A stretch of 61,555 nucleotides of DNA from Oscillibacter sp. Its GTDB lineage: Bacteria > Bacillota > Clostridia > Oscillospirales > Oscillospiraceae. Made by a program: the position numbers and the translations under genes. The notes under the pieces were generated by a model. It was not told the origin of the DNA and made no database searches. It saw only the letters and a list, made by a program, of their open reading frames with translations. Shown piece after piece: positions 5,006 through 19,494 of the stretch. The DNA lies in contig JAFUNB010000009.1 in the NCBI GenBank assembly GCA_017482345.1, positions 1 through 61,555 on the forward strand, in the 5' to 3' direction. How positions within the stretch are numbered: position 1 is the stretch's first letter; each line of letters opens with the position of its first letter.

Positions 5006-5021
5006 AGTTGTTCTCCTTCTC

Positions 5022-5687
5022 TTATTGCTTTCCAAGGGCGCGCATGGTCTCACCCAGGCTCTCCTGTTTCAGTCCCTTCGGAGACAGCTTGGCCAGGCGG
5101 AATGTAAATTCGATGAACGTTCCCGCCCCCACCATAGGGATGATGGTGCCGATGCCCACCTGCCCTCCCAGGAGCCAGCCAACAACGCAAACCACGGCGT
5201 CCAGACAGACACGGCAGAAGCCGGCCGTCCGGCCGGTCTTGCGGGCCAGCGCCACCATCAGAGAATCCCGCGGGCCGGAGCCAAGCTCCTCCCGCATATA
5301 CACCAATGTACTCAGCGCCAGCACTTCCACGCCTGCAAACATCATGAGAATACCACCAAAAATCGTTTTCTGCAAGGGGATCAGGTCAAACCAGAGGATC
5401 AAATCGATGATAGGGCCGGGGATGAACACGGAAAATACGGAGCCAAAACCGATGCGCTCGCCCAGAAGCATCGCCGTGGAAATGACCGCCACATTGATCA
5501 GAACATCGATGGTGCCAAAGCTCATACCCGTCACGTTGGTCAGTCCCTGCTTCAGGACATTCCACGGAGAAACACCGATATTGGCCTGCAGCATCATCAC
5601 GATGCTGACCGCGCACAGGATCTGGCCGGTCATCGCGCTGTGGAAAAAGCGCTTGATATACGGGCGTTTTCCGGATCGTTTCACCAT
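5022..5687 (-). CDS. YczE/YyaS/YitT family membrane protein
   Basis: A 221-residue protein with five or six membrane segments. The N-terminal QANIGVSPWNVLKQGL and the central MREELGSGPRDSLM are typical of the COG2364 family (YczE, YyaS), whose role is unknown. An in-frame TTG at 5699 overlaps the ribosome binding site TTTGGAGGGG, so I choose ATG 5687. It sits 22 bases after alr and 16 bases before the DUF401 gene and is surely cotranscribed with both. Confidence 0.7.
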   Translation of the reverse strand: MVKRSGKRPYIKRFFHSAMTGQILCAVSIVMMLQANIGVSPWNVLKQGLTNVTGMSFGTIDVLINVAVISTAMLLGERIGFGSVFSVFIPGPIIDLILWFDLIPLQKTIFGGILMMFAGVEVLALSTLVYMREELGSGPRDSLMVALARKTGRTAGFCRVCLDAVVCVVGWLLGGQVGIGTIIPMVGAGTFIEFTFRLAKLSPKGLKQESLGETMRALGKQ

Positions 5688-5709
5688 AGACCCCTCCAAA
5701 GTTACAGGC

Positions 5710-6861
5710 TCACTCGTTCAGATAGATATACTGCACCCGCTGCCGCACGCTGCAGGTGATAGAGCTGGGGCCGGAGTCCAGCGGCTTATACAGCCACTCG
5801 CAGGGAACGCCCTCCTCCCCGCCGCCCAGCAGGATCACTTCGTCGCCCTCCCGGATATCCGGGAAGTCCGTCACGTCCACCATGAACATATCCATGCACA
5901 CACGGCCCACCACCGGGCACACATGGCCGCGGATGCGGACCTTGCCCCGGTTGGTCAGCTGGCGGAAGTAGCCGTCGGCGTCGCCGGCGGAGATGACCGC
6001 CAGCGTCATATCCCGCTCGGCCACGGCCAGCCGGTTGTAGCTGACGGACGTGCCCTCCGGCGCGGGACGCAGCATGGCCACCCGGGCCTTCCACGTCATG
6101 ACCGGCCGGAACGGTACCGGACGCCGCTTCACCGTCTCCGGCAGCAGACCGTACAGCACCGTGCCCGTGCGGCACATGTCCAGCGCGTACTCCGGGGAGT
6201 TTACCGTGGACGCGGAGTTGCAGCAGTGCCGCAGTCCGGGGTCAATGCCCCGCTCCCGTAGTCCCTCGCACACCGCCATAAACCGCCGGAACTGCTGTTC
6301 CGTATAGGCGTCGTCCTCCTCTCCCCGCAGATAGGAGCTGGAGAAGTGGGTGAAAATGCCGGTCACGCGCAGATGCTCGTTCCGATAGGCGGCCTCCGCC
6401 GCCTCCATGGTCTGCTCAAAATCAGGGCCGTAGGCCAGATAGCCGATGCGGGTCATGCCGGAATCCACCTTCAGGTGGCAGGGCACCACCACGCCGGCCT
6501 CTGCGGCGCATTTGGCCAGCGCCTCCGCGTAGGACGGCGAGATCAGTGCCTGGGTGATGCGCTTCTCCGCCAGAACGGGAGCCGCCTCCGCCGGCGTGGG
6601 GCCCAGGATCAGGATCTCCTGCCGGATGCCCGCCTCCCGCAGCTCCAGCGCCTCCGACAGGCAGGCAACGCCCATCCAGTCCTCCGGAAAGGCCTCCGCC
6701 AGCGCTCTGGCCACCGGCAGGGCGCCGTGGCCGTAGGCGTTGGCCTTCAGAATATTCATGAGGCGGCCGCCCTCGGGCAGAAGGCGGTGCAGCTGGGCAC
6801 AGTTATCTCTCAGCGCCGCCAGGTCGATCTCCGCCCAGCAGCGGCTTGTTGTCAAATTCAT
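5710..6861 (-). CDS. alr: Alanine racemase
   Basis: A 383-residue PLP enzyme that makes D-alanine for peptidoglycan. The PLP lysine is Lys39 in ILKANAYGHG, the fold-III barrel carries DSGMTRIG and HCCNSAST, and the C-terminal domain contains VGRVCMDMFMVDVTD with the usual substrate-binding residues. Length and start are normal: ATG 6861 follows GAGGAGGAAGAAC. In spore formers a second racemase often acts in spores, so paralogues may exist elsewhere. It leads an operon with two membrane protein genes. Confidence 0.95.
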   Translation of the reverse strand: MNLTTSRCWAEIDLAALRDNCAQLHRLLPEGGRLMNILKANAYGHGALPVARALAEAFPEDWMGVACLSEALELREAGIRQEILILGPTPAEAAPVLAEKRITQALISPSYAEALAKCAAEAGVVVPCHLKVDSGMTRIGYLAYGPDFEQTMEAAEAAYRNEHLRVTGIFTHFSSSYLRGEEDDAYTEQQFRRFMAVCEGLRERGIDPGLRHCCNSASTVNSPEYALDMCRTGTVLYGLLPETVKRRPVPFRPVMTWKARVAMLRPAPEGTSVSYNRLAVAERDMTLAVISAGDADGYFRQLTNRGKVRIRGHVCPVVGRVCMDMFMVDVTDFPDIREGDEVILLGGGEEGVPCEWLYKPLDSGPSSITCSVRQRVQYIYLNE

Positions 6862-6892
6862 GTTCTTCCTCCTCTCGTTGAACCAGGGGGAA

Positions 6893-6942
6893 TGTGAAAA
6901 AAAGGACACTGCCGGCCAACCAAATCGGGTGGCCGGCAGTCG
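6893..6942 (-). terminator. Intrinsic terminator of the NhaC-like gene
   Basis: Perfect 10-base inverted repeat ACTGCCGGCC (6908-6917) and GGCCGGCAGT (6931-6940), followed on the minus strand by GTCC and seven U. Confidence 0.85.
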
Positions 6943-6998
6943 TTCCTAAGGGGAATAGAAAAGTTTTTAAGAAAAAACCGTTTGAACTGTCAGATGAT

Positions 6999-8372
6999 TT
7001 ACTTGTTCAGAGCGATAACTTCCTGGTTCTCGTCGTACATGGGGATGCCTTCCTTCTCTTCCTTGGTGCGGCCCAGACCGAACTGGATGGTGACGATGGA
7101 GACCACAGCCAGGATCATGCAGTAGAAGTTGGCGCCCATGATGGGGAAGGGATTCAGGCCGGTCAGGGTCATGCACAGCAGGACCTGGCCGCCGTGGGGG
7201 ATGAAGCCCTGGACAACGCAGGAGAAGATATCCAGCAGAGAGGCCATACGCTTGGGAGCGATGTTGTGCTCGGCAGCCATGGGGCGAACCAGAGGAGCAG
7301 ACATCAGAATGGCGATGGTGTTGTTGGCCAGGCACAGGTCGAACACGGAGACCATTGCAGCGGTCATGTACTCGGCGCCCTTGCGGCTCTTGACCTGAGA
7401 AGTCATCTTGCCGACCATCCAGTCGACACCGCCCAGCTCCTCGGCGATCTTGCCGCAGCCGCGCATCAGGATGGACACCATAGAGATCTCATACATACCG
7501 GCCATACCGTTGGTAACGGACTGAGCAAACTGGATGACCGTAAACTCGGGAACCACGACCAGGCCGATCACACCGGCCACGATGATGCCGCCCAGCAGCA
7601 GGATGAACACGTTGACGCCGGTCAGAGCGAAGATCAGAACGAACAGGTAGGGAACAGACAGGATGACCTGATAGGGGAAGTCGCCGGTCAGAGGAGCACT
7701 GTCACTGACCACGGTGAACACGATGATGGCCAGAATGGCAGACACAGCGGCGATGGCGCCGTTCATCTTGAACTTGTCGCGCATCTCGCAGCCGCAGCCG
7801 CGGGTGGCAGCGATGGTGGTATCGGAAATAACGGACAGGTTGTCGCCGAACATAGCGCCGCCCAGAACTGCGCCGATGGCGAAGGCCATGTTCAGACCGG
7901 CGCCCTCAGCCACGGTGACGGCGATGGGGCCGATGGCGGAAATGGTACCCATGGAGGTACCCATTGCGGTGGCGATAAATGCGGAGATCAGGAAAATACC
8001 AGCCAGCAGGAACTGGGGGGGAACCAGAGACAGACCCAGGTTGGCGGTGGAAACACGGGCGCCGATGTCGGTACAAACCTGAGAGAAGGCACCGGAGAGC
8101 AGGAACACGCCCACCATGATCATGGTACCGTCGTTGGCCATGCCCTTACAGAAGGTATCCATCCGGTATTCCATGCTGCGCTCCTTGCCGCCCATACACA
8201 TAACGACCAGCAGAGCAACGACCAGGCCGAAGACACGGGGGATCTGCTTGAAGGACTGAGCGCCGTAGCCCAGGGCAGTGAACATCAGGCCGCTGCCCAG
8301 GTAGACGATCAGGAATGCAAGCAGGGGCGCAAAACCTAACCAGCCATAGTTCTTCTTGTTATTGTTTGACAT
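6999..8372 (-). CDS. NhaC-family sodium-coupled carrier
   Basis: A 457-residue protein with about twelve membrane segments. The NhaC signature GGAMFGDNLSVISDTT occurs near residues 172-187, and paired loops 'IATAMGTSMG' and 'CLANNTIAI' are present. NhaC proteins are annotated as Na+/H+ antiporters, but members in Firmicutes and proteobacteria are also proposed methionine or other amino-acid carriers (MetT). Here the gene lies 151 bases downstream of the methionine-gamma-lyase-like gene on the same strand, so import or exchange of a sulfur amino acid is a reasonable inference. ATG 8372 follows GGGAGGAAAAAC. Confidence 0.8.
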   Translation of the reverse strand: MSNNNKKNYGWLGFAPLLAFLIVYLGSGLMFTALGYGAQSFKQIPRVFGLVVALLVVMCMGGKERSMEYRMDTFCKGMANDGTMIMVGVFLLSGAFSQVCTDIGARVSTANLGLSLVPPQFLLAGIFLISAFIATAMGTSMGTISAIGPIAVTVAEGAGLNMAFAIGAVLGGAMFGDNLSVISDTTIAATRGCGCEMRDKFKMNGAIAAVSAILAIIVFTVVSDSAPLTGDFPYQVILSVPYLFVLIFALTGVNVFILLLGGIIVAGVIGLVVVPEFTVIQFAQSVTNGMAGMYEISMVSILMRGCGKIAEELGGVDWMVGKMTSQVKSRKGAEYMTAAMVSVFDLCLANNTIAILMSAPLVRPMAAEHNIAPKRMASLLDIFSCVVQGFIPHGGQVLLCMTLTGLNPFPIMGANFYCMILAVVSIVTIQFGLGRTKEEKEGIPMYDENQEVIALNK

Positions 8373-8445
8373 AAATGTTTTTCCTCCCTCTATTTATTTC
8401 CGCAGTGCATCTATAGGTGCATCTCTCCTTTTTTGTTTCCTGTCC

Positions 8446-8474
8446 GGGAACCGCCTGTCATCAGAGCGGTTCCC
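8446..8474 (-). promoter_or_regulatory. Stem-loop between the lyase and the NhaC-like gene
   Basis: Inverted repeat GGGAACCGC (8446-8454) and GCGGTTCCC (8466-8474), which can be extended outward with further pairs. It is not followed by a U run on the minus strand, so it looks more like an mRNA processing or stabilising hairpin than a terminator. Confidence 0.5.
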
Positions 8475-8523
8475 CGGCAGGCGCAAATCAGAAAAGGAGA
8501 AACGGCTGGGATTCAACGGGGGA

Positions 8524-9747
8524 TCAGATGGCGGCGAATGCGCGCTCGAAGTCAGCGATCAGGTCCTTGGCAGACTCCAGGCCAACAGACAGGCGGACCA
8601 GACCGTCGGTGATGCCGGCAGCCAGACGGGCCTCGGGAGCCACACCGGCGTGGGTCATGCTGGCAGGATGCTCGATCAGGGTATCGGGGTCGCCCAGGGA
8701 CACGGCGATAGCGGGGATGGTCAGGTTGTTCAGCAGCTTCTTGCCGGCCTCGAAGCTGCTCAGGCCCTTCACGTCGTCGTTCAGCTCGAAGCTAACCATG
8801 CCGCCGAACATACCGTTCTCCATCTGCTTGCAGGCCAGCTCGTGGCTGGGATCGCTCTCCAGACCGGGATAGTACACGGTCTTGACATAGGGGTTGGCCT
8901 GCAGGTACTTGGCGATCTCCATGGCGTTGGCGCAGTGCTTCTCCATACGGACAGCCAGCGTCTTCATGCCGCGCAGCACCAGATAGCTGTTGAAGGGAGA
9001 GGGCGGGCAGCCGTTGATCTTGGTCATGCAGTTGGCACGGATCACGCCCATATCGGCGGCGGAACCGACCACAACACCGCCCAGAGCGTCGCCATGGCCG
9101 TTGATGTACTTGGTAATGGAGTGCAGAACGATGTCAGCGCCCAGCTTCAGAACGTGCTGAATGGGAGGAGGAGCGAAGGTAGCGTCCACCACCACACGGA
9201 TATCGGGACCGACGGCGGCCTTGACGGCGGCCACGTCGGTGACCTTGATCATGGGGTTGTTGGGCGTCTCAAAGTAGACGATCTTGGTGTTGGGACGGAT
9301 GGCAGCCTTCAGAGCCTCGATATTGGCAGTATCCACGCGGGAGACCTCGATGCCCAGAGGAGGCAGGTTGCTCTCCGCCACGAAGTTGGTGCCGCCGTAA
9401 ACGGAGTCGTCGAAAATGATGTGGTCGCCGGTCTTCAGGAAGGCCAGCATCACAGAACCGACAGCGCCCATACCGGAAGCCGTGGCGACGGCGTCCTCGC
9501 CGCCCTCCATGGCTGCGCACTTCAGCTCGAAGGCGCGGGTGGTGGGGTTGCCGCTGCGGGAATACACGGGATGATAACCGGGGATCTGCTTGGCGAACTT
9601 GGCCGCGCCCTCTTCCACGGTGTCAAAGCAGAAGGTAGAGGTCTGATAGATCGGGGTTGCCAGAGCGCCGTATGCGGGATCGTGTTCCTGGCCTGCATGG
9701 ACGATCAAAGTTTCAAAATCCACATTGCTGAAATCAATCTTGCTCAT
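8524..9747 (-). CDS. Methionine gamma-lyase-like PLP enzyme (trans-sulfuration family)
   Basis: A 407-residue Cys/Met-metabolism PLP enzyme. It shows YSRSGNPT, the TASGMGA phosphate-binding turn, the PLP lysine in HSITKYINGHGD and the C-terminal RLSVGLE arginine. Family role: elimination from methionine or cystathionine-type substrates giving an alpha-keto acid, ammonia and a thiol. Two departures from typical methionine gamma-lyases are visible: the active-site cysteine position in the VYGGT loop is glycine, and the usual DNTFATP has become DATFAPPP. The substrate could therefore differ (homocysteine, cystathionine, cysteine or O-acyl-homoserine). ATG 9747 follows GGGAGG. The promoter carries an operator shared with the reductoisomerase-like gene. 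Confidence 0.8.
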   Translation of the reverse strand: MSKIDFSNVDFETLIVHAGQEHDPAYGALATPIYQTSTFCFDTVEEGAAKFAKQIPGYHPVYSRSGNPTTRAFELKCAAMEGGEDAVATASGMGAVGSVMLAFLKTGDHIIFDDSVYGGTNFVAESNLPPLGIEVSRVDTANIEALKAAIRPNTKIVYFETPNNPMIKVTDVAAVKAAVGPDIRVVVDATFAPPPIQHVLKLGADIVLHSITKYINGHGDALGGVVVGSAADMGVIRANCMTKINGCPPSPFNSYLVLRGMKTLAVRMEKHCANAMEIAKYLQANPYVKTVYYPGLESDPSHELACKQMENGMFGGMVSFELNDDVKGLSSFEAGKKLLNNLTIPAIAVSLGDPDTLIEHPASMTHAGVAPEARLAAGITDGLVRLSVGLESAKDLIADFERAFAAI

Positions 9748-9765
9748 ATTTACCTCCCAAATTAA

Positions 9766-9784
9766 TATAACATCAGATGTCTTA
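9766..9784 (-). promoter_or_regulatory. Operator copy 1 (imperfect TAAGACATCAGATGTCTTA palindrome)
   Basis: The right half GATGTCTTA is exact and the left half has two mismatches. The 19-base string ACATCAGATGTCTTATGTC (9770-9788) is identical to 14480-14498 upstream of the reductoisomerase-like gene. It lies between the predicted -10 and the start codon of the lyase, as expected for repression. Confidence 0.7.
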
Positions 9785-9799
9785 TGTCCTGTTTCTTAA

Positions 9800-9828
9800 A
9801 TTTTATGGCGGAATCCGCTGTTTGTCAA
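9800..9828 (-). promoter_or_regulatory. Predicted promoter of the lyase gene
   Basis: TTGACA, 17-base spacer, TAAAAT on the minus strand, about 50 bases before the start codon; the operator at 9766-9784 lies just downstream of the expected transcription start. Confidence 0.75.
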
Positions 9829-9862
9829 TCTCGCAAAAACCGCCAAGATGCGCATTTGCCTT

Positions 9863-9879
9863 TTGTATAAAAAATACAT
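9863..9879. promoter_or_regulatory. Palindrome TTGTAT-N5-ATACAT
   Basis: Matches 11 of 12 arm positions of the TTGTAT-N5-ATACAA palindrome found over the larA promoter start at 12727-12743. It lies between the UxaA-type gene end and the lyase promoter. Being AT-rich, it could be chance. Confidence 0.45.
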
Positions 9880-9896
9880 TTTTGGTTCAGACGGTG

Positions 9897-11063
9897 TTAA
9901 ATCACCGGGCCCATGCACCAGATATCCATGGATTTGCTGTAATAAATGCTCTCGCCCTTGCACTGTTCACCGGACAGGGAGCGCACCACCTTGGCATACA
10001 GCTCCTCGCCGACCTCCTCAATGCTCTTCTCACCCAGAATGATCCGGCCGGCGTTGAGATCCATATCGTCGGACATGCGTTCATAGGTGTTGGGGTTGCC
10101 GCAGATCTTGATGACCGGCAGGATGGGGAAGCCCTGGGGCGCGCCGCGGCCGGTGGAGAAGGTGATGCACTGGGCGCCGCTGGCGGCCATGCCGGTCAGG
10201 ATCTCGATCTCACGACCCGGGGTATCCTTGATCCAGAGGCCCTTGCCCCGGCTCATCTCCGGATACTCCAGCACGCCCTCGATGGTGCGGGAGCCGGACT
10301 TCATGATGGCGCCGAGGGATTTTTCCTCGATGGTGGTCAGGCCGCCCTCGATGTTGCCGGGCGTAGGCTGGCCCTTGCGCATATCGCAGCCCAGAGACTT
10401 GGCGCGGTTCTCCATCTCCTCCACCTTCTGAAGGATCTTCGCGCCCACCTCCGGCGTGCGGCCCCGGCGGGCCAGGATATGCTCGGCGCCGATGAACTCC
10501 GTCACCTCGCCGAAGATGACCGTGCCGCCCTGATCCACGATCTTGTCGGCCACATAGCCGATGGCGCAGTTGCTGGCAAGGCCGGAGGTGGCGTCGGAGC
10601 CGCCGCACTTGATGCCCATGATGAAATGGGTCAGATCAAAGGCCTTGCGCTGCATGCCGGAGATGGCCATAGACAGCCGCTGAGCCTTTTGGATACCGTC
10701 GGCGATGGCCTTGGCCGTGCCGCCGATTTCCTGGATCCGCACGATGTTATAGGGTTTGCCGGTCTGCTCGATGGCTGCCAGCAGGCGGTCCACATCTGTG
10801 CCCTCGCAGCCCAGACTGACCACCAGCACGGCGCCGGCGTTGGGATGGCAGGCCAGGGAGATCAGGGTATCCGTCACCCGCTCCAGATCCGGCGGCAGCT
10901 GGCAGCAGCCCTGATGATGCAGCAGGGCGCGGCAGTTCATGACCTGGCCGCAGATGGCCTCCACCACTTCGTTGGCGCAGACGACGCTGGGGATCACCGC
11001 CACATAGTTGCGGGAACCGACCTTGCCGTCGGGCCGCTCATAGCCGTAAAACAGATCTGCCAT
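9897..11063 (-). CDS. UxaA-family dehydratase/lyase, large (catalytic) subunit
   Basis: A 388-residue protein matching the C-terminal domain of altronate/galactarate dehydratases: N-terminal YERPDGKVGSRNYVAVIP, HHQGCCQ, IKCGGSDATSG, PTPGNIEGGLTTIEEK and the C-terminal DDMDLNAG. Cysteines in these motifs are those expected for the iron site. In classical UxaA this domain is fused to a small SAF domain; here the SAF part is a separate gene 4 bases upstream, the arrangement also known for (R)-sulfolactate sulfo-lyase SuyAB. Substrate therefore remains open: a sugar acid, sulfolactate or another 2,3-substituted acid. ATG 11063 follows AAGGAG. It ends the larA operon. Confidence 0.85.
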   Translation of the reverse strand: MADLFYGYERPDGKVGSRNYVAVIPSVVCANEVVEAICGQVMNCRALLHHQGCCQLPPDLERVTDTLISLACHPNAGAVLVVSLGCEGTDVDRLLAAIEQTGKPYNIVRIQEIGGTAKAIADGIQKAQRLSMAISGMQRKAFDLTHFIMGIKCGGSDATSGLASNCAIGYVADKIVDQGGTVIFGEVTEFIGAEHILARRGRTPEVGAKILQKVEEMENRAKSLGCDMRKGQPTPGNIEGGLTTIEEKSLGAIMKSGSRTIEGVLEYPEMSRGKGLWIKDTPGREIEILTGMAASGAQCITFSTGRGAPQGFPILPVIKICGNPNTYERMSDDMDLNAGRIILGEKSIEEVGEELYAKVVRSLSGEQCKGESIYYSKSMDIWCMGPVI

Positions 11064-11067
11064 ACGC

Positions 11068-11370
11068 TCACTCCTTCCAGTCGCCGCGGGCGCGGGCGCT
11101 GTCCAGATTGTGGACATGCACATAGTCGCCCCGCTTGATGTCCATGGTCGCGATGCCGATGGACTCGCCGTACTTCAACACCGTTTCGCCTTTGGGAATA
11201 TCCCGCAGCGCCAGCTTGTGGCCGTAGGGGATCTCCTCATGGACGCCGATGGGATCGATGCTGCCGTTTCGGGCCATGACCTCCACGGTGTCGCCGGCGT
11301 TCACCTCCGCAAAGATGGACGCCACATTGTCGATGGGCTGCACCTGCACAGCCAGTTTCCGTTCGCTCAT
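11068..11370 (-). CDS. UxaA-family dehydratase/lyase, small SAF-domain subunit
   Basis: A 100-residue protein with the SAF fold of the UxaA N-terminal domain: NVASIFAEVNAGD, GHKLALRDIPKGE and VLKYGESIGIAT. The motif containing a histidine (YGHKLAL) is conserved in altronate dehydratase and SuyA small subunits. A TTG at 11376 lies too near the ribosome binding site AAGGAGG, so ATG 11370 is the better start. It lies between larA (11 bases away) and the large subunit (4 bases away) and is certainly cotranscribed with both. Confidence 0.85.
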   Translation of the reverse strand: MSERKLAVQVQPIDNVASIFAEVNAGDTVEVMARNGSIDPIGVHEEIPYGHKLALRDIPKGETVLKYGESIGIATMDIKRGDYVHVHNLDSARARGDWKE

Positions 11371-11381
11371 ATCCAACCTCC

Positions 11382-12653
11382 TTAACTTCTCACGATCACA
11401 GAGACGCCGTCCGGGATCACCGTCACCGACGCGTCCCTGCCCTTCAGCTCAAAGGCCTTTTCCAGCGCCTCGTCAAAGCTGGCAAACGCCAGGAAGCCCA
11501 TGCTCTCCAGCTCCCGGAGATCCATGTGCTGGGTGACGATGATCACCGTGTACTGCAGCATGATCTTGGCGTACGTCTGGGCACACCACTGCTCCGGAAT
11601 GGACTCCTTGGGTGGGATAGCCTCCACCGTCTCCTTGATCTTCTGAGCAGAGCCAAGCCGCATCAGCTTCTCGAAATTCGTGCCGCCGATGCCGTCGCAC
11701 AGGGAGGCGCCCAGGATCAGCACCGCCCCCTCCGCCGCGCAGGCCGCCGCCGTGGAGACGCCCTTGGGGGTCTGATACAGGTTCTGATCCAGCGGATAGC
11801 CGCTGTTGGTGGTGATGACGATGTCAGACTGCACCTTGTCCACGCCGCACATATCGGAGACAAACGCGCAGCCCTTGGCGTGGGCCTCCACACAGTCGCC
11901 GGCAAAAGCCGCCACGATATGCTTCTCCGCGTCCATGGCCACGTTCAGAATGAACGCAAGGCCCACCTTCCGGGCCGCGTAGTCCATATCCTCGTGGATG
12001 GGGTTGCCCTTCAGCACGCCGGTGGCGGCGTAGGGACTGGCGATGGCCTTGGCGGAGTGGTTTTCATTGACGGTCTCCTGGGAGGCAATGCCCGGCAGGA
12101 TGCTCTTGCGGCCGCCGCTGAAGCCGGCGAAGAAATGGGGCTCGATAAAGCCTTCCGACACGATGAGGTCGCTCTCCAGCGCCCGGTAGTTGATGCTCAG
12201 ATCCGCGCCGGAGGGCAGCTTGCAGACGTAGCGCATTTCATCCGCCGCAAAGGCGTTGTGCACCACGATCCGCTCCTTCTCCACCAGCTCGGCGCCGAAG
12301 CGCTCCACCTGCTCCTGGTGGGTCATGGCCCGGTGCAGACCGGTGGCGATCATGATGGTGATCTCCGCGTCCGGCGCGCCGGCACGGATCTCCTCCAGCA
12401 GGATGGGCATTGTGATGCCGGAGGGCATGCTGCGGGTGTGGTCCGAGGTGATGACCATGATCTTGTTCTTGCCGGTCGCCAGCTCCCGGAGCTTCGGCGT
12501 GCCGATGGGCGCCGCCAGCGCATCCCGGACGATATCCGCCTCCGAACGGTCGCTTTTGAATTCCTCCGCCCGGTTGGTCAGCACATGACTGAGATTTGCG
12601 TCAGGCACATGCAGCGGCAGGGTTCCTTTGTGATAGGGAAGCTGAAATTCCAT
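11382..12653 (-). CDS. LarA-family nickel-dependent 2-hydroxyacid racemase/epimerase
   Basis: A 423-residue LarA homologue. The nickel-pincer ligands of Lactobacillus plantarum LarA (His174, Lys184, His200) map here to His173 (EPHFFAGFSGG), Lys183 (GGRKSILPG) and His199, with exactly conserved spacing, and the catalytic-region histidines His72 (SDHTRS) and His107 (ATGLH) are also present. It should therefore bind the nickel-pincer nucleotide; the LarB, LarC and LarE cofactor-making genes are not in this window. Family members racemise lactate, malate, phenyllactate or hydroxyglutarate, or epimerise gluconate. First gene of the operon with the split UxaA-type lyase, for which it probably supplies the right stereoisomer. 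ATG 12653 follows AGAAGGAGG. Confidence 0.85.
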   Translation of the reverse strand: MEFQLPYHKGTLPLHVPDANLSHVLTNRAEEFKSDRSEADIVRDALAAPIGTPKLRELATGKNKIMVITSDHTRSMPSGITMPILLEEIRAGAPDAEITIMIATGLHRAMTHQEQVERFGAELVEKERIVVHNAFAADEMRYVCKLPSGADLSINYRALESDLIVSEGFIEPHFFAGFSGGRKSILPGIASQETVNENHSAKAIASPYAATGVLKGNPIHEDMDYAARKVGLAFILNVAMDAEKHIVAAFAGDCVEAHAKGCAFVSDMCGVDKVQSDIVITTNSGYPLDQNLYQTPKGVSTAAACAAEGAVLILGASLCDGIGGTNFEKLMRLGSAQKIKETVEAIPPKESIPEQWCAQTYAKIMLQYTVIIVTQHMDLRELESMGFLAFASFDEALEKAFELKGRDASVTVIPDGVSVIVRS

Positions 12654-12726
12654 ACATACCTCCTTCTGTGACCGAAGTCCATGTCCCGGCTGGTCAGCTA
12701 CACCGCCAGCCGCAAATGTTTTTATT

Positions 12727-12743
12727 TTGTATTTTTAATACAA
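12727..12743 (-). promoter_or_regulatory. Operator palindrome TTGTAT-N5-ATACAA at the larA promoter
   Basis: Perfect 6-base arms, abutting the predicted -10 of the larA promoter and covering the expected transcription start. GntR/FCD proteins bind short palindromes of this kind; the convergently read GntR gene at 12861-13532 is the likely owner. Confidence 0.65.
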
Positions 12744-12771
12744 TCATATCGATTTTGCTCCTGTAATGCAA
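12743..12771 (-). promoter_or_regulatory. Predicted promoter of the larA-uxaA operon
   Basis: TTGCAT, 17-base spacer, TATGAT on the minus strand, about 90 bases upstream of the larA start codon. Confidence 0.6.
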
Positions 12772-12814
12772 TTCACAAATGCGCTAAAATTTTGTGTGCT
12801 TTTTCATAAATCCA

Positions 12815-12849
12815 TATAAAAATACCCGACAGACCGTGATCTGCCGGGC
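12815..12849 (-). terminator. Intrinsic terminator of GntR regulator 1
   Basis: Inverted repeat CCCGACAGA (12825-12833) and TCTGCCGGG (12840-12848) with one G-U pair, followed on the minus strand by UAUUUUUAUAU. Confidence 0.75.
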
Positions 12850-12860
12850 ATTTCCCTGTT

Positions 12861-13532
12861 TTAAGCCATATTTTTCTGATTTGCCAGAATAAAGCGCACC
12901 TTTTCCTCGGCGCCTTCCAGATGGACACGCAGAGCGCGCTCGGCACCCTCCACGTCGCCGCTGAGCATGCAGTCGATGATCTCGATATGCCGCTGGGTAG
13001 ACGTGATGTTATGCTCGTCCACCGACAGAGACAGCAGTCGTGCCGCCTGCAGGATACTGTAAACGCGGTCGGACAGCTCCGGCAGGAAGCGGTTGCCGGA
13101 AAAGCGGATGATGGCGCTGTGGAATTCCGTATCCAGGCGGACATACTCCTCCGCGTCGTAATCCGTATAGAAATACTCGAACTTGGCCCGCATTTCGATC
13201 ATATAGCGGCGCTGTTCCGGCGTCATTTCCTTCGCGGCGATGCGGATGGCGTAGAGCTCCAGCAGAGAGCGGACCGCAAAGATATCCTTGGAGTTCTCCT
13301 CGGTCAGCGTTCTGACCACCAGGCCCTTTCCGGCGCCTGTCTCCAGCAGTCCGTCGTCCTTCAGGCTTTTCAGTGCCTCCCGCACCGGCGTGCGGCTGAC
13401 CTTGAACATCTCGGCCAGATCGTTTTCCTGCAGCCGGGTCCCCTGGGGAAGCTGGCCGCTGATGATCAGCATTTTGATCCCCTCGTACACCTGCTCCCGA
13501 ACGGATTTGATTTTTGGTATGTTCACACTCAT
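12861..13532 (-). CDS. GntR-family transcriptional regulator 1 (FCD domain)
   Basis: A 223-residue DNA-binding protein. The N-terminal winged helix (about residues 10-75) contains LAEMFKVSRTPVREALKSL. The C-terminal all-helical FCD domain has RLDTEFHSAI, RHIEIIDCML and RVHLEGA, which provide the Asp and three His of the usual metal site where the effector (commonly a small organic acid) binds. ATG 13532 follows AGGAG. The gene is transcribed toward larA and diverges from a second FCD regulator, so it is the best candidate to control the larA-uxaA operon through the TTGTAT-N5-ATACAA palindrome. Confidence 0.85.
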   Translation of the reverse strand: MSVNIPKIKSVREQVYEGIKMLIISGQLPQGTRLQENDLAEMFKVSRTPVREALKSLKDDGLLETGAGKGLVVRTLTEENSKDIFAVRSLLELYAIRIAAKEMTPEQRRYMIEMRAKFEYFYTDYDAEEYVRLDTEFHSAIIRFSGNRFLPELSDRVYSILQAARLLSLSVDEHNITSTQRHIEIIDCMLSGDVEGAERALRVHLEGAEEKVRFILANQKNMA

Positions 13533-13563
13533 ATCAAAACTCCTGCACGATATAGTTAAGTAT

Positions 13564-13592
13564 ATTATATATGACAATCGGACCGGATTCAA
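13564..13592 (-). promoter_or_regulatory. Predicted promoter of GntR regulator 1
   Basis: TTGAAT, 17-base spacer, TATAAT on the minus strand, about 32 bases before the start codon. Confidence 0.7.
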
Positions 13593-13600
13593 GAAAATGG

Positions 13601-13629
13601 TTGTGAAATGCTGGCAAATATGCTAAAGT
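13601..13629 (+). promoter_or_regulatory. Predicted promoter of GntR regulator 2
   Basis: TTGTGA, 17-base spacer, TAAAGT, 45 bases before the start codon and back-to-back with the promoter of regulator 1. Confidence 0.55.
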
Positions 13630-13673
13630 AAATATATATTCTTTTATTACAATGTCTGGGAGCGTGATTTCGT

Positions 13674-14378
13674 TTGCATTTGAGCCCCCTCCATTCTTCG
13701 CAGAAAAGTTTGTCCCGTCAGGTGATGGATTCCATTGAGCAGATGATCCGGGAGCAGCAGCTGGTGCCCGGCGACGTCCTCCCCACTGAAACGCAGATCG
13801 CGGAGGAGCTGCAGGTCAGCAAAAGCAGCGTGCGGGAAGCCGTTAAAATGCTGGAGGCACTGGGTATCGTGGAGATCCGCCGCGGCCTGTGCACCGTGAT
13901 CAGTGCCAATACCGAGCAGGGCTACCTCAACGTCATGCTGTCCCAGCTGTATATCAACAGCGGCAGCAGCGAGGAGCTGCAGATTTTCCGCCGCACCATC
14001 GAGACCGCCTATACCTCTCTGGCCATCGACGTGGCCACCGAGGCAGATCTGAAGCTCATTGGTGAGGCACTGGAGACATTCAAAACCAAGGTTGCCGCCG
14101 GAGAGCAGAGCTCTGCTGACGATCTGGCCTTCCACAACAGTATCCTGCAGGCGACCCATAACGCCTTCCTCATCAGTCTCGGAACCGCCCTGAATGAGAT
14201 GTTCCGGGAAACCATCGGTATTTCCATCGATGTGAATCCCGCCACCGCCGTGTCTGACCACGAAAAGATCTACACCGCCATCGTCAACCGGGATAAGGAT
14301 GCCGCCACGGCCGCCATTGCCGCCAGTTCCCGGGAATGGGCCGCTGCGTTTCGCATCAAAGAAAGCCGCAATCCCTGA
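13674..14378 (+). CDS. GntR-family transcriptional regulator 2 (FCD domain)
   Basis: A 234-residue protein with a winged helix (about residues 10-80; TEIAEELQVS-type helix-turn-helix followed by KSSVREAVKMLEALGI) and an FCD ligand-binding domain. The first two metal-site elements (DDLAFHNSI and DHEKIYTAI) are present, but the third histidine expected in the last helix is replaced by serine-rich sequence (AASSREW), so metal or ligand binding may differ from regulator 1. No ATG fits; TTG at 13674, 11 bases after GGGAG, is the most likely start, but it is uncertain. The reductoisomerase-like gene follows on the same strand after a terminator and carries a 19-base operator that this protein probably binds. 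Confidence 0.8.
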   Translation: MHLSPLHSSQKSLSRQVMDSIEQMIREQQLVPGDVLPTETQIAEELQVSKSSVREAVKMLEALGIVEIRRGLCTVISANTEQGYLNVMLSQLYINSGSSEELQIFRRTIETAYTSLAIDVATEADLKLIGEALETFKTKVAAGEQSSADDLAFHNSILQATHNAFLISLGTALNEMFRETIGISIDVNPATAVSDHEKIYTAIVNRDKDAATAAIAASSREWAAAFRIKESRNP

Positions 14379-14385
14379 ACACCGC

Positions 14386-14420
14386 CTGCGGGGAGCAAGC
14401 TCCCCGCAGATTTTTTTATT
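14386..14420 (+). terminator. Intrinsic terminator of GntR regulator 2
   Basis: Perfect 11-base inverted repeat CTGCGGGGAGC (14386-14396) and GCTCCCCGCAG (14399-14409), then A and a long U run. Confidence 0.9.
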
Positions 14421-14447
14421 TTTTGCAGAAAACTTTTCCGCCGCCCA

Positions 14448-14475
14448 TTGACAACGCCCTCACATCTGTTATACT
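14448..14475 (+). promoter_or_regulatory. Predicted promoter of the reductoisomerase-like gene
   Basis: TTGACA, 16-base spacer, TATACT; the operator palindrome begins at the next base, so a bound repressor would cover the transcription start. Confidence 0.8.
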
Positions 14476-14494
14476 TAAGACATCAGATGTCTTA
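14476..14494 (+). promoter_or_regulatory. Operator copy 2: perfect palindrome TAAGACATCAGATGTCTTA
   Basis: A 19-base palindrome with 9-base arms around a central A. The overlapping string 14480-14498 recurs exactly at 9770-9788 before the methionine-gamma-lyase-like gene, linking both genes to one regulator, most likely GntR regulator 2 encoded just upstream. Confidence 0.8.
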
Positions 14495-14546
14495 TGTCTA
14501 ATATGATTCCATATTTTATTTCGTCATTTTGAGGAGGGTCCTTTCC

Positions 14547-15545
14547 ATGGGTAAAGTATATTACGATCATGACGGCAATATCGAGGTCATTCAGGACAAG
14601 GTAGTCGCGATCATCGGTTACGGCAATCAGGGCCGCTCCCAGGCGCTGAATATGCGTGATTCCGGCGTCAAGAACATCATCGTCGGCAGTGTCCGCGACG
14701 AGTCCTGGAACACCGCCAACTCCGACGGCTTCCAGACCTATTCCATTGCCGAAGCCTCCAAGCAGGCTGATATCATTTTCCTGCTGCTGCCCGACGAAGT
14801 CGCTCCCGAGATCTACGAGCGCGACATCGCTCCCAACCTGCATCCCGGCGCAGCCCTGAACTTCGCCTCCGGCTACAACATCACCTACGGCTTCATCAAG
14901 CCCGCCGCTGATCTGGACGTCATCATGGTGGCTCCCCGCATGATCGGCAAGGGCGTGCGCGAGACCTATGAGAACGGCACTGGCTTCCCCACCTTCGTGG
15001 TCATCAACCAGGACGCCACCGGCCATGCCAAGGACATCGCCGTGGGTCTGGCCAAGGCTCTGGGCTCCACCAAGGCCGGCGCCATCGAGGTCACCTTCAA
15101 CGACGAGACCTATCTGGACCTGATGAGCGAGCAGGCTATCTGGCCCCTGATCATGAACGTATTTGTGACCGCATTCGACTTCTTCATCGAAAAGGGTCTG
15201 CCCGCCGAGGCAATCCTGACCGAGATGTACATGTCCAAGGAACCCATGGTCATGCTGGAAAAGATGGCCGACATGGGCCTGTTCAAGCAGCTGCCTCTGC
15301 ACAGCCGCACCAGCCAGTATGGCCAGATGTCCCGTTTCAAGATGGTGGACAACTCCTCCATGCGCAAGTTCATTGAAGAGCAGTATGAAAACATCGTCAA
15401 CGGCGGCTTCGCCCAGGAGTGGGAGGCTGTCAAGGCCGACGGCCTGAAGAAGTTTGACGAGCTGCGCGCCGAGACCGAGTTGCTGCCCATCTCCGTGGTG
15501 GAGGCCGAGGTCCGCAAGAACCTCTCCGGCGGCAAGACCGAGTAA
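14547..15545 (+). CDS. Ketol-acid reductoisomerase-like NAD(P)-dependent protein with altered active site
   Basis: A 332-residue class-I-length member of the IlvC superfamily. It has an N-terminal Rossmann fold (IGYGNQGRSQALN near 24-35) and the knotted helical domain with the metal acidic residues Asp191, Glu195 (LDLMSEQ) and Glu232. Key residues of true ketol-acid reductoisomerases are changed: the HG of the loop near residue 107 is Ser-Gly (ASGY) and the APKGPG segment is APRMIG, so the conserved His and Lys are lost. It is not next to other ilv genes, and its promoter is controlled by a catabolic-type operator. I infer a reductase or isomerase for another branched or hydroxy acid, not valine synthesis. 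ATG 14547 follows GAGGAGGG. Confidence 0.75.
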   Translation: MGKVYYDHDGNIEVIQDKVVAIIGYGNQGRSQALNMRDSGVKNIIVGSVRDESWNTANSDGFQTYSIAEASKQADIIFLLLPDEVAPEIYERDIAPNLHPGAALNFASGYNITYGFIKPAADLDVIMVAPRMIGKGVRETYENGTGFPTFVVINQDATGHAKDIAVGLAKALGSTKAGAIEVTFNDETYLDLMSEQAIWPLIMNVFVTAFDFFIEKGLPAEAILTEMYMSKEPMVMLEKMADMGLFKQLPLHSRTSQYGQMSRFKMVDNSSMRKFIEEQYENIVNGGFAQEWEAVKADGLKKFDELRAETELLPISVVEAEVRKNLSGGKTE

Positions 15546-15558
15546 GTCCATAAACAAC

Positions 15559-15596
15559 AAAAAAGTTCTCACATCTTTCGATGTGAGAACTTTTTT
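15559..15596. terminator. Bidirectional intrinsic terminator
   Basis: Inverted repeat GTTCTCACATC (15565-15575) and GATGTGAGAAC (15580-15590) with a TTTC loop, flanked by A6 and T6, between convergent genes. Confidence 0.9.
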
Positions 15597-15603
15597 GTCT
15601 GTT

Positions 15604-16278
15604 TCAGCCCCGGATCTCCAGCGCGCGGGCCAGAGAACGGGTGGTCACGTTGTAAGCGCCGCGGGAGAGGAAGTAGCTGATGGCCTGTCCCTCGTTGACC
15701 GTCCAAACGGACACGCCGATGCCCTCCGCCGCCAGCAGCTGGATAAAGCGGCGGGTGACCAGGTTGTAGTTGACGTTCACCACGCGGACGTTGTTTTCCC
15801 TGCAGACGCGGCAGATGGTCTCCGCCGCCGTCAGCTCGAAGTTGGGAATGTCCCTGTAGTTGATATACAGGTCCTCCACATACTCCTCCAGGTTCAAAAA
15901 CACCTCCACGCCCTCCAGCTCCGGACGGGACTTCATAATATCCACGGACACGGTGCCGGAATAGATGAGGCGGTCGGTGACGCCCAGCTCCGCCGCCAGC
16001 TGATAAACCGGCCACTCCAGGCCGGCGGGCTTCAGATCGCAGTTGATGCGCATTGCGGGATGCTGGGCCAGCAGGGCAAACACCTCCCGCAGGCGGGGGT
16101 ATTCGCCGTTCAGCGTCTCGTCGTGAGTGATGATCAGCTCGCCGCTGACGGGATCCGCCTGGATGTCTACTTCCAGAGCGTCAGCCCGGCTCTCCAGCGC
16201 GTAGCGCACAAACTCCAGAGAGTTGTCCGGCCGCTTGTCGGCGCCGGAGTGGGCGGTGATCATAGTTGCTCGAGTCAT
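15604..16278 (-). CDS. Glycerophosphodiester phosphodiesterase family protein 1
   Basis: A 224-residue GDPD/PI-PLC-fold protein. It has AHSGADKRPDNSLEF, ALEVDIQ and ITHDETL, that is, the catalytic first histidine, metal Glu/Asp pair and second histidine. The family's HRG is HSG here, an unusual change beside the catalytic histidine. Family role: hydrolysis of glycerophosphodiesters to glycerol-3-phosphate and an alcohol. No signal peptide. The gene is downstream of the ABC operon but after a terminator. Two in-frame ATGs (16284 and 16278) share the site GGAGG; 16278 has the better spacing. Confidence 0.75.
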   Translation of the reverse strand: MTRATMITAHSGADKRPDNSLEFVRYALESRADALEVDIQADPVSGELIITHDETLNGEYPRLREVFALLAQHPAMRINCDLKPAGLEWPVYQLAAELGVTDRLIYSGTVSVDIMKSRPELEGVEVFLNLEEYVEDLYINYRDIPNFELTAAETICRVCRENNVRVVNVNYNLVTRRFIQLLAAEGIGVSVWTVNEGQAISYFLSRGAYNVTTRSLARALEIRG

Positions 16279-16301
16279 GTTCATTTTCCTCCAGACACAC
16301 G

Positions 16302-16333
16302 AAAACAAGGGAGGCTCTCGCCTCCCTTGTTTT
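16302..16333 (-). terminator. Intrinsic terminator of the glycerophosphodiester ABC operon
   Basis: Perfect 14-base inverted repeat AAAACAAGGGAGGC (16302-16315) and GCCTCCCTTGTTTT (16320-16333), directly after the permease stop codon. Confidence 0.85.
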
Positions 16334-16340
16334 AAGTTGC

Positions 16341-17186
16341 TTAGTGCTCCCAGTCCTTCTCTTTCAGGTTGGTGTAGATATACACCGCGGCGGAAACAGA
16401 GCAGATCAGGAACATGATGACCGACAGTGCGGCCGCACGCTCGTAGCGCAGGTACTTGTTGAACTGGTCAAACAGAGCGATACCCAGCATCTTGGGAGCG
16501 TTGCCACCCATCAGATAGGGGGTGGTGAAGGAGCCCACGTTGGACATGAAGACGAACGTGGAGGCCACGACCACGTCCTTATAGGACAGGGGCAGGATCA
16601 TGGAAGTGAAGGTCTTCCACTTGGTTGCGCCCACGTCGCGGGCACCCTCGATGATGGAATCGGGGATGGCACCCAGGCCGGCCGTGATCATCAGTGCTGC
16701 GAAGGGGATGTTGAACCACAGGTTCATGGTGATCATACCGCTGGCATGATACATCATGCCCAGCTTCACATCCGCGCCGAACAGCAGGGAGATACGGTTG
16801 ATGAGACCGGAGTCACGGATGATGGTGATCATCGCGTAAACGGCCACCAGGCTGGGAACGAAACGGGGGATCAGGTACAGGTTACCGATCAGCCGTGCGA
16901 CGGGGGACTTCACGAAACGCAGATACAGAGCCAGCAGGTATGCCACCACAATGGCGATGGCCACCGTAGCAAAGCACACGAACATCGTGAAGAAGATATT
17001 CTTCAGCTGGTTGGGATCCGTGAAGAAATACAGATAGTTGTCGAACGTGAAACCGCCTGTCTCCGGGTCGGTGAAGCTCTTCTGGACGGCGGTAACGATC
17101 GGCCATGCGACGACCAGCATAACCACAAGGAATGCGGGCATAACGAGGGCATAGCCGAATGCCATTCTTTTCTTTTCTTTACTCAT
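16341..17186 (-). CDS. ABC transporter permease (PotB/PhnU-like)
   Basis: A 281-residue inner-membrane permease with six predicted membrane segments and the EAA-type loop (IIEGARDVGATKWKTF) that contacts the ATPase. It is the last gene of a four-gene operon: permease, ATPase, lipoprotein, permease. The architecture is that of spermidine/putrescine, Fe3+ or phosphonate-type importers. Context with two GDPD enzymes, GlpP and glycerol-3-phosphate oxidase points to uptake of glycerol-3-phosphate or glycerophosphodiesters. The start ATG 17186 has a weak upstream GAGG; coupling to upstream translation is possible. Confidence 0.8.
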   Translation of the reverse strand: MSKEKKRMAFGYALVMPAFLVVMLVVAWPIVTAVQKSFTDPETGGFTFDNYLYFFTDPNQLKNIFFTMFVCFATVAIAIVVAYLLALYLRFVKSPVARLIGNLYLIPRFVPSLVAVYAMITIIRDSGLINRISLLFGADVKLGMMYHASGMITMNLWFNIPFAALMITAGLGAIPDSIIEGARDVGATKWKTFTSMILPLSYKDVVVASTFVFMSNVGSFTTPYLMGGNAPKMLGIALFDQFNKYLRYERAAALSVIMFLICSVSAAVYIYTNLKEKDWEH

Positions 17187-17223
17187 AACGCAATCAACCT
17201 CGGATACAGGAGATTTTTTAGAG

Positions 17224-17247
17224 GGGGAGGAGGATCCTCTCCTCCCC
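17224..17247 (-). promoter_or_regulatory. Intercistronic stem-loop after the solute-binding lipoprotein gene
   Basis: Inverted repeat GGGGAGGA (17224-17231) and TCCTCCCC (17240-17247) without a U run. Such hairpins protect the 3' end of abundant binding-protein mRNA inside ABC operons. Confidence 0.5.
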
Positions 17248-17266
17248 GCCCGCAGAGTTCAGGAAA

Positions 17267-18433
17267 TTAGCCCAGGGTAGCGATCTCGTTATCCCAGCGC
17301 TCGTTGAAGGTGGTGGACAGGTCGCCGATGGACAGGATGCGGAAGTTGGAGACGTCCAGGGTCTGCAGATCCTCATAGCCGGTCATATCCATGTTGGCGG
17401 TATCGACCAGGGGGATAGCGGCCATCTGGGTCACCAGCAGGCTCTGAGCCTCCTCAGACAGCATGTAGTCGATGAAGGCCTTGGCACCCTCGGGGTTAGA
17501 GCCGATGGTGGGGATGGACAGGGACTGGACGGAGCCGGTGAAGGAGGGCTGGATGGTGGTGATCTTGATGGAATCGGGGATGGAGCCGGCAGCGCGCTGA
17601 GACAGGACCATGTCAGCCCAGTTGGGGCACATGTCGATCTCGCCCTGAGCCAGCAGATCCAGGGTGCCCTGGTTCTTGTTGGGATAGACGATGGAACCGC
17701 CGGACTGATACATGTAGGGGTGCAGCTCCTCCAGCAGAGCGAAGCCCTCGTCCCACTGCTCGGCCCACTTGGCATCAGCGGAGGTCATAGCGGCCTCGTC
17801 ATCGATGAAGTTGTAAACAGAGGTACGGACGAAGGAGTCGCCGGCGCCGCCGGTGCCGGGGGTGTTGTAAGCGAAGCGGCCGGGATGCTCCTTGATCCAG
17901 GTCTTCAGCTCTTCATAGGTGGTGGGGACGTTGTCAACCTTGTCGGCGTTGTAGGCCAGGATGACGGTGGTGCCGCGGTAGGGCTGGCTGTACTCGGGAG
18001 AGACAGCGCACTTAGCCTCGACGGAAGCAGCGTTGGGGATCTCGGAAGCGTCGATCTTGTGGAAGGCCTCCTCGCCGACCAGAGCGATGATCTTGGACCA
18101 GTCGTCGCCGCTGAAGTCGACCAGGTCATAGTCGGTGTTGGTCTGGCCGGCCTTCTGGGCGGCAACGATCATATCGACCATGGTCTGGGTGCCGGTACCG
18201 GACAGCATGAAGTTCAGCTTGACTTCATAGGTATCCTGGCTGGCGTTGAACTTCTCGGTCAGGGTCTCGAAGATCTCACGAACGTTGTCGGAGCCGGTAG
18301 CCCACAGGTTGACTTCCTTGATGACCTCGGACTCACCGCCGCTCTGAGCAGGGGCCTCTTCCTTCTTGCCGCCGCAGGCAGCCAGGGACAGAACCATTGC
18401 CAGAGTCAGGAGCAGGGCAAATAACTTCTTCAT
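17267..18433 (-). CDS. ABC transporter solute-binding lipoprotein
   Basis: A 388-residue lipoprotein: signal peptide with lipobox LSLAAC (cleavage before Cys near residue 20), then a two-lobe periplasmic-binding fold with NTPGTGGAGDSFVRT and PTIGSNPEGAKAFIDY, as in family-1 binding proteins of the PotD/FutA/PhnS type. It captures the substrate outside the membrane for the permeases at 16341 and 19495. The start is ATG 18433 after GAGGAAAAGAA; an upstream in-frame start would spoil the signal peptide. Its signal sequence is nearly the same as that of the second binding protein at 41548. Confidence 0.85.
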   Translation of the reverse strand: MKKLFALLLTLAMVLSLAACGGKKEEAPAQSGGESEVIKEVNLWATGSDNVREIFETLTEKFNASQDTYEVKLNFMLSGTGTQTMVDMIVAAQKAGQTNTDYDLVDFSGDDWSKIIALVGEEAFHKIDASEIPNAASVEAKCAVSPEYSQPYRGTTVILAYNADKVDNVPTTYEELKTWIKEHPGRFAYNTPGTGGAGDSFVRTSVYNFIDDEAAMTSADAKWAEQWDEGFALLEELHPYMYQSGGSIVYPNKNQGTLDLLAQGEIDMCPNWADMVLSQRAAGSIPDSIKITTIQPSFTGSVQSLSIPTIGSNPEGAKAFIDYMLSEEAQSLLVTQMAAIPLVDTANMDMTGYEDLQTLDVSNFRILSIGDLSTTFNERWDNEIATLG

Positions 18434-18457
18434 TTCTTTTCCTCTTTTCTTCAAATT

Positions 18458-19471: not shown

Positions 19472-19494
19472 GTCATTAACTCCCTTACACTCGA

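Follow-up and report, generated by a model that had tools for sequence, protein, structure and literature searches.

Two adjacent, probably separately regulated gene modules of catabolic appearance around a LarA racemase and a KARI-2-type enzyme in an Oscillibacter contig

The specificity of LarA, the nickel-pincer 2-hydroxyacid racemase, is set by positions 175, 176, 358 and 359 (LarA1 numbering), where lactate racemases usually carry F, F, W and E or Q and malate racemases carry Lys at position 359 (PMC11770544). One surveyed enzyme, LarAH42 of Enterocloster asparagiformis, has Cys at position 359 and acts with low efficiency, preferring 2-hydroxybutyrate (610 M-1 s-1) to lactate (200) and glycerate (12), and it is poor on glycerate and 4-deoxythreonate; the authors of that survey do not assign a physiological role to such racemases (PMC11770544). 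A 2020 survey of LarA proteins compiled a gene-neighbourhood table in its supplement (PMC7583248), and a crystal paper counts a Saccharolobus solfataricus enzyme among the ketol-acid reductoisomerases (KARIs) (PMC8615647). The locus described here places a Cys-type LarA in a row with a two-subunit UxaA-type dehydratase, next to a lyase-like pyridoxal phosphate (PLP) enzyme and a KARI-like protein. It lies in a 61,555-nucleotide stretch of Oscillibacter sp. (assembly GCA_017482345.1, contig JAFUNB010000009.1), the whole of which is called the window; the assembly measures 1.63 Mb and is estimated to be 72% complete.

The block is interpreted, with slightly better than even confidence, as two side-by-side catabolic modules under separate regulation, passed on as a unit in a minority of Oscillibacter-type bacteria. 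Module B consists of LarA (11382..12653, minus strand; NF033504, 566.5 bits over a cut-off of 460), the small SAF subunit of the dehydratase (11068..11370, minus strand; PF08666, 24.3 bits over 21, with an N-terminal match to TIGR03248), its large subunit (9897..11063, minus strand; PF20629 and PF04295, with GarD, 6u7l, as the sole PDB match at 193 bits) and the FCD-type regulator GntR1 (12861..13544, minus strand). Module A consists of a Cys/Met-metabolism PLP enzyme resembling methionine gamma-lyase (MGL) (8524..9747, minus strand; PF01053), a KARI-like NAD(P)H reductase of the KARI-2 sister family (14547..15545, plus strand; PF07991 and PF01450), the FCD-type regulator GntR2 (13674..14378, plus strand) and, usually, an NhaC-type carrier (6999..8372, minus strand). 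Profile searches find the winged helix-turn-helix GntR domain (PF00392) and the FCD domain (PF07729) in both regulators. The enzyme classes and the two back-to-back FCD regulators named by the first-pass annotation are correct, and so is its close packing of larA with both uxaA genes: gaps of 11 bases (larA to small subunit) and 4 bases (small to large subunit) fit one predicted operon. Its NhaC carrier is also present, but outside the limits 8524..15545 that it gave. A search of open-access papers agrees with its statement that no pathway with this gene set has been described.

The promoters of the two modules carry different sites. The module A site, the exact 19-mer ACATCAGATGTCTTATGTC, stands in the KARI-like promoter (14480..14498, plus strand), immediately after a sequence that by eye resembles a -10 box, and in the lyase-gene promoter (9770..9788, minus strand), where the earlier reading had also placed it. 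No exact copies beyond these two are found across the 72%-complete assembly, no match with up to three mismatches occurs in 100 shuffles of the window, and a third match in the window, with three mismatches, overlaps the 14480-14498 copy on the other strand. Footprinting places the core CATCAGATGTC 53-101 bases before the KARI-like start in all ten loci, and motif A precedes the lyase gene in 8/8 loci, each score being reached by none of 200 shuffles (simple 2-mer). All seven larA promoters score below the best of 200 shuffles for this motif, and the larA operon is therefore regarded as lacking the shared 19-base site; for L034 and L037, no more than 4 of 200 shuffles attain the promoter's score. 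The GntR1-GntR2 spacers likewise stay below the best shuffle (7/7).

The module B site is a palindrome, TGTATTnwwwATACA, that occurs in all seven larA promoters (four exact, two with one mismatch, one with two) and in none of ten KARI-like promoters; its copy in the window, TGTATTAAAAATACA (12727..12743), matches exactly within the own genome. A second exact copy lies upstream of the lyase gene (9863..9878). Sites with one mismatch elsewhere in the own genome (G000:C13 and C8) are near the background count, and one of these (G000:C13:55675-55691) lies just upstream of an AEC-family-permease-like gene. A single shared site for all genes, tried as an explanation, is ruled out by the separate distributions of motifs A and B. 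GntR2 is assigned to module A because it persists with the motif in L035 and L040, two 21-kb loci from which GntR1 is missing jointly with LarA and UxaA; GntR1 is assigned to module B because four loci of other families (L153, L154, L155 and L157) have a protein 35-38% identical to it close to LarA-UxaA. From these patterns we infer which regulator would bind which site, and that GntR2 may act as a repressor.

Conservation of the block is assessed by a contig scan with the KARI-like protein as query, which returns 12 loci, nine of them at 83-91% identity and belonging to records of Oscillospiraceae, Oscillibacter, Anaerotruncus or Heteroruminococcus. The full gene order recurs in five of these nine (L034, L036, L037, L038 and L042, the last with its KARI-like gene cut by the end of the stretch), and L041, cut by a contig end, shows LarA, GntR1, GntR2 and the KARI-like gene. 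In L035 and L040 the lyase, GntR2 and the KARI-like gene are present, with the NhaC carrier in L035 and not in L040, while L039 (3.3 kb) holds just GntR2 and the KARI-like gene, with no lyase in the 1.49 kb preceding GntR2. GntR2 adjoins the KARI-like gene in all nine, including the two loci without GntR1, and the carrier adjoins the lyase in L034-L038 and L042. An alanine-racemase-like gene next to the carrier (5710..6861, minus strand; family named by eye) possibly belongs to the block, and it adjoins NhaC in L034, L036, L037, L038 and L042. In L035 (O. valericigenes An411) the carrier is followed by a weakly arylformamidase-like, cyclase-family gene (5463-6143; 53.8 bits, under a cut-off of 223).

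Among 60 genomes (the own, 36 of the same genus and 23 of the same order), orthologues of the KARI-like protein, the large UxaA subunit and the lyase at more than 80% identity are confined to the own genome and G008, G011 and G033; these three correspond to L034, L038 and L036, respectively, which makes the orthologue and locus counts dependent on each other. A KARI-2 DNA pattern searched for without mismatches hits the own genome alone among 398 genomes of the phylum, exact matching being a test that misses variants.

Module B genes also occur without module A beside them. A search with the large UxaA subunit of 391 genomes of the same class, own included (E up to 1e-112), finds relatives in 14 other genomes, nine at 59-71% identity and five at 51-54%; against plasmids it returns 318 records, every one under 60%. 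In eight of the nine closer relatives, LarA, the small and the large UxaA subunit stand in a row, and these eight are genomes of other families in which module A is not beside LarA-UxaA; in L154 a reading frame, a transposase by eye, is inserted between LarA and UxaA. In the ninth (L151), this LarA is missing beside the UxaA pair. Among the more distant relatives, this LarA is not beside UxaA in four of the five (L159-L162), the fifth (G1053) lying outside the comparison. A GntR1-like regulator and a GntP-like permease accompany the trio in four of the eight LarA-UxaA-only genomes.

These distributions bear on how the modules relate to one another. The first-pass annotation saw a single co-regulated island in which the five enzymes and the carrier together break down one acid, hydroxylated or sulfur-containing, with pyruvate or 2-oxobutyrate as the product. 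The co-occurrence in relatives on which such a pathway depends holds for the window and five of the nine close loci, where the order is kept, and the palindrome upstream of the lyase gene, exact in the window and L034, suggests that the modules may be partly joined by some joint control. Read-through from the large UxaA subunit gene towards the lyase gene is possible, since no hairpin between them is among the 25 longest inverted repeats, a comparison made with no terminator scan. Against a single pathway stand the separate site sets, the retention of lyase and KARI-like genes in L035 and L040 without LarA, UxaA or GntR1 beside them, and the recurrence of LarA-UxaA without those two genes. One five-enzyme pathway is not established when A stands without B beside it in two loci and B without A beside it in eight, and such a pathway is judged improbable. 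A somewhat unlikely account takes the two cassettes as unrelated neighbours, brought side by side by chance in one lineage; it overlaps the two-module layout and denies the functional tie. Its appeal is that the modules occur apart and are found together just in the window, L034, L036, L037, L038, L042 and the truncated L041. Yet the side-by-side order is kept in the window and five loci although the block proteins have diverged to 50-91% identity, and in the window and L034 the module B palindrome precedes the lyase gene of module A. The rival explanations considered here and below are not mutually exclusive, and their probabilities do not sum to one. The observation that gave rise to the earlier reading is real and beyond chance, and its single-pathway interpretation is only partly supported.

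Within module B, the evidence centres on one residue. At positions 175, 176, 358 and 359 the window LarA has F, F, W and C, the Cys standing at the LarA1 T359 position, and so it departs from the lactate-racemase pattern in having Cys for E or Q; His108, His174 and the residues of LarA1 that bind the NPN cofactor are identical (alignment to 5huq, by eye). The same four residues occur in 14/14 aligned LarAs, with UxaA in view for 13; in the remaining locus, L041, the contig ends inside the LarA gene. A LarA search of the same 391 genomes (E up to 1e-90) yields 59 matches in 57 genomes, all of which were examined. Nine are of the Cys type and all nine are linked to UxaA, eight inside the fetched stretch and one (L167) with UxaA 1.65 kb further on, visible in L154. 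The other 50, with 27 Glu, 20 Gln, 2 Met and 1 Thr at this position, have no UxaA nearby in fetched stretches of 2.9-6 kb. As the sequences are related, the 59 LarAs do not count as independent trials. The words 'UxaA' and 'dehydratase' are absent from the main texts of both LarA surveys (PMC11770544, PMC7583248), the supplementary neighbourhood table of the latter being a place where the link may be listed.

The neighbours of LarA-UxaA in other genomes offer hints to the substrate. Neighbour profiles were run for L150, L151 and L157, and other loci were named by eye. L157 has a GntP-like permease (250 bits, under 293), an FCD-like regulator, a tartronate semialdehyde reductase (424 over 397) and a glycerate 2-kinase-like protein (249, under 550); L154 has a similar set, L155 a permease, kinase and regulator, and L153 a permease and regulator. 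L150 has a fumarase (781 over 665), a malic-enzyme-like protein (393, under 1178) and an adenylosuccinate-lyase-type protein (12943-14307) over the purB cut-off, and L152 appears to have the same neighbours, this last protein included. The UxaA pair of L151 stands with a PanE-like protein, two PanB proteins and a formate-tetrahydrofolate ligase (4655-10748), all over cut-off, a set that looks like the catabolism of a hydroxymethyl-bearing acid.

Sulfolactate was considered as a substrate. The idea is kept in play by the second-best model of the L150 protein at 12943-14307, the coenzyme M enzyme XcbD (3-sulfopropionylcysteine synthase; 515.5 bits, under a cut-off of 600), whereas no sulfolactate dehydrogenase or sulfite gene is recognised nearby by eye, and the pocket of the window LarA does not have the Lys that malate racemases carry at position 359, which counts against it. 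The sulfur-containing acid proposed earlier for LarA and UxaA finds no direct support. An aldarate or hexonate, suggested by the GarD-like large subunit and the tartronate semialdehyde reductase of L157, ranks low as a probable LarA substrate because the F, F, W pocket is of the small-acid type. Threonate or erythronate comes to mind since the 51-54% UxaA relatives of L159-L162 sit with KdgT, DUF1537 and PdxA2 proteins (by eye), and the L151 set was weighed for it too; it is kept only as a possible candidate, because LarAH42 is reported to be poor on glycerate and 4-deoxythreonate.

In module A, the lyase has MGLs as its best NCBIfam and PDB matches and scores below all four MGL cut-offs listed (460 vs 666; 454 vs 549.7; 427 vs 666; 374 vs 617). 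It reads YGGT in place of YGCT, as do all seven aligned cluster lyases, whereas the four aligned paralogues keep YGCT, whose Cys we take to be the MGL active-site Cys. An identity as MGL is therefore not supported. In three of the four genus genomes with the block (the window genome, G008 and G011), 55-60% paralogues of the lyase have an NhaC-like carrier as neighbour (by eye), and this adjacency suggests that carrier and lyase form a working pair. The window carrier exceeds the Pfam NhaC superfamily cut-off (PF03553, 74.7 bits over 23) and lies far under the curated score for NhaC antiporters (TIGR00931, 58 vs 370 bits); it is likely the importer of module A. Further paralogue loci have features of their own. 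A lyase paralogue (9215-10438) and an NhaC-like carrier (7685-9118) of L092 (G000:C13) are accompanied by a large, sigma-54-dependent-looking regulator, as in L093 and L094 (by eye), and a YGCT lyase in L095 (8022-12149; G011:C7) lies near RidA-, 2-oxoacid:ferredoxin oxidoreductase-, LysR- and NhaC-like genes (by eye), a set that looks like methionine catabolism.

The KARI-like protein contains the KARI_N and KARI_C domains (PF07991, PF01450), passes TIGR00465 (256 over 226) and stays under the PRK05479 cut-off (290 bits, cut-off 336). Its signature (FASGYN / APRMIG / SRTSQYG) is shared with 6jcv, and it matches 7q03 and 6jcv (Saccharolobus KARI-2) at equal score. A midpoint-rooted tree of 38 rows, from which a canonical row without a motif match was removed and which does not contain L037, L039, L042, L045 and L123, separates 23 KARI-2-type rows from 15 canonical IlvC rows with 100/100 support, and by this tree the enzyme belongs to a deep KARI sister family together with Saccharolobus KARI-2. 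In all 23 KARI-2 rows APK is replaced by APRM and TAEYG by TSQYG, and two extra residues stand between the two glutamates; 20 of these rows have Ser for the canonical His; all 15 canonical rows have His, Lys and TAEYG where the KARI-like protein has Ser, Arg and TSQYG, at positions presumed to be catalytic. The His-to-Ser change was rejected as a defining KARI-2 trait, since three of the 23 rows (L133-L135) keep His. D-apionate oxidoisomerase is a further candidate model for the KARI-like enzyme. KARI-2 proteins of four genomes from the phylum of a Bathyarchaeota record (L126-L129) stand in a row with a glyoxylate reductase and IMPase/phosphatase-like, Fe-ADH-like and DUF89-type proteins, with an HpaI-like aldolase near; in L127, the one locus profiled, the glyoxylate reductase alone passes its cut-off.

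With these two enzymes, module A might instead feed isoleucine or propionate metabolism, a proposal that is compatible with the two-module layout and differs in its chemistry: the lyase would turn methionine-like amino acids into 2-oxobutyrate, and the KARI-like enzyme would be a second, working KARI with 2-aceto-2-hydroxybutyrate as its substrate. The membership of the lyase in the MGL family, the inclusion in the KARI-2 clade of a Saccharolobus protein deposited as a KARI, and the company of the YGCT paralogue in L095 all speak for it. It is nevertheless thought unlikely, as the genome has a separate canonical ilvC elsewhere, no acetolactate synthase gene is recognised near the block by eye, and all seven aligned cluster members have Ser for His, Arg for Lys and the two-residue insertion between the glutamates.

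The preferred reading of two modules can be put in terms of chemistry, with direction of flow and reaction types inferred from protein families and signature residues. Module A likely cleaves an amino acid brought in from outside and carries out the reduction of an oxo acid: the amino acid would be taken up by the NhaC-type carrier and cleaved to a 2-oxo acid by the MGL-like lyase, an oxo acid would be reduced by the KARI-2-type enzyme with NAD(P)H, and GntR2 would repress both promoters through ACATCAGATGTCTTATGTC-like sites just past the -10 box. Module B likely racemises and then beta-eliminates a short 2-hydroxy acid: the Cys-type LarA, with its nickel-pincer cofactor, would invert C2, the UxaA pair would remove the C3 leaving group to give a 2-oxo acid, and GntR1 would control the operon through TGTATTnwwwATACA.

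Several findings weigh against this reading. Matches to motif A in the lyase promoters of L035, L038 and L040 are weak (15.6-16.8, compared with 15.1 for the best shuffle of any lyase promoter), and the palindrome upstream of the lyase gene in the window and L034 may partly join the modules; it recurs in L035 with two mismatches, the other five lyase promoters having none. The absence of LarA, UxaA and GntR1 from L035 and L040 applies to 21 kb, the rest of both genomes not having been searched. LarC and LarE are needed for the LarA nickel-pincer cofactor; no match above the cut-off turns up for either one in the own genome (72% complete) or in the LarA-bearing genomes of L036 and L037 (G456, G457), and G734, rated 100% complete, with two LarA matches and searched for LarE alone, has no LarE over cut-off. 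Overall, LarC is found in 5 of 12 genomes and LarE over cut-off in 6 of 12, the two sets differing by two genomes each. Finally, KARI-2 of S. solfataricus works as a KARI on acetolactate, and the altered enzyme described here could likewise be an ordinary KARI.

A bolder combination is rated a long shot. In it, the modules would be joined, the KARI-2 enzyme making a 2,3-dihydroxy acid whose C2 the Cys-type nickel racemase inverts before dehydration by the UxaA pair yields a 2-oxo acid. If true, IlvC and IlvD would have here a nickel-dependent counterpart that works in catabolism and is supplied with an oxo acid by the neighbouring lyase. In a narrower form, Cys-type LarA and UxaA would make up a dedicated, newly recognised racemase-dehydratase pair, and this pairing would explain the still unassigned physiological role of LarAH42-like enzymes.

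Beyond the block, a perfect 19-base inverted repeat at 15557-15598 divides it from the genes at 15604-24294, where a glycerophosphodiesterase-like gene, an ABC sugar-type importer and FAD-dehydrogenase-like genes (by eye) suggest glycerol phosphate use. Two tandem MgtC-like gene pairs (by eye) lie at 25543-26979 and 37770-39202.

Two features appear worth pursuing. The first is the pairing of Cys-type LarA with UxaA, as a residue-marked LarA subgroup joined to one dehydratase in all cases seen gives a testable route to the substrate. The second is the KARI-2 enzyme, whose family, otherwise found here mainly in archaea, is present in Oscillospiraceae-type bacteria in a catabolic-looking setting, so that KARI naming by curated score alone may mislead.

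Compared with known systems, the window LarA shares with the lactate racemase group the NF033504 family and the catalytic and cofactor-binding residues, and with LarAH42 in particular the Cys at position 359. It differs in having this Cys where lactate racemases usually have Glu or Gln and, like the other Cys-type LarAs of this analysis, in being linked to a dehydratase of the UxaA type. The dehydratase has the SAF small part and the GD_AH second and C-terminal domains of GarD, UxaA and SuyAB, all over their cut-offs (PF08666, PF04295, PF20629); GarD, however, is an undivided protein, whereas the window enzyme consists of two chains that score far under the GarD cut-off (229 and 45 bits vs 731, in a model for the undivided protein). 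The LarA-UxaA locus L157, and by eye L154, has in common with the window block the LarA-UxaA trio and an FCD-like regulator, and the L157-type permease, tartronate semialdehyde reductase and glycerate kinase-like protein are not recognised in the window block. The lyase belongs to the same PLP family as methionine gamma-lyase, but has Gly where that enzyme has Cys and scores below the listed cut-offs. The KARI-like protein shares the KARI_N and KARI_C domains and the KARI-2 signature with the Saccharolobus solfataricus enzyme (PDB 6jcv); the canonical HGF, APKxPG, ExxHE and TAEYG motifs of IlvC are replaced in it, and, unlike IlvC, its gene stands beside a PLP lyase and an FCD regulator, with no ilv genes recognised adjoining.

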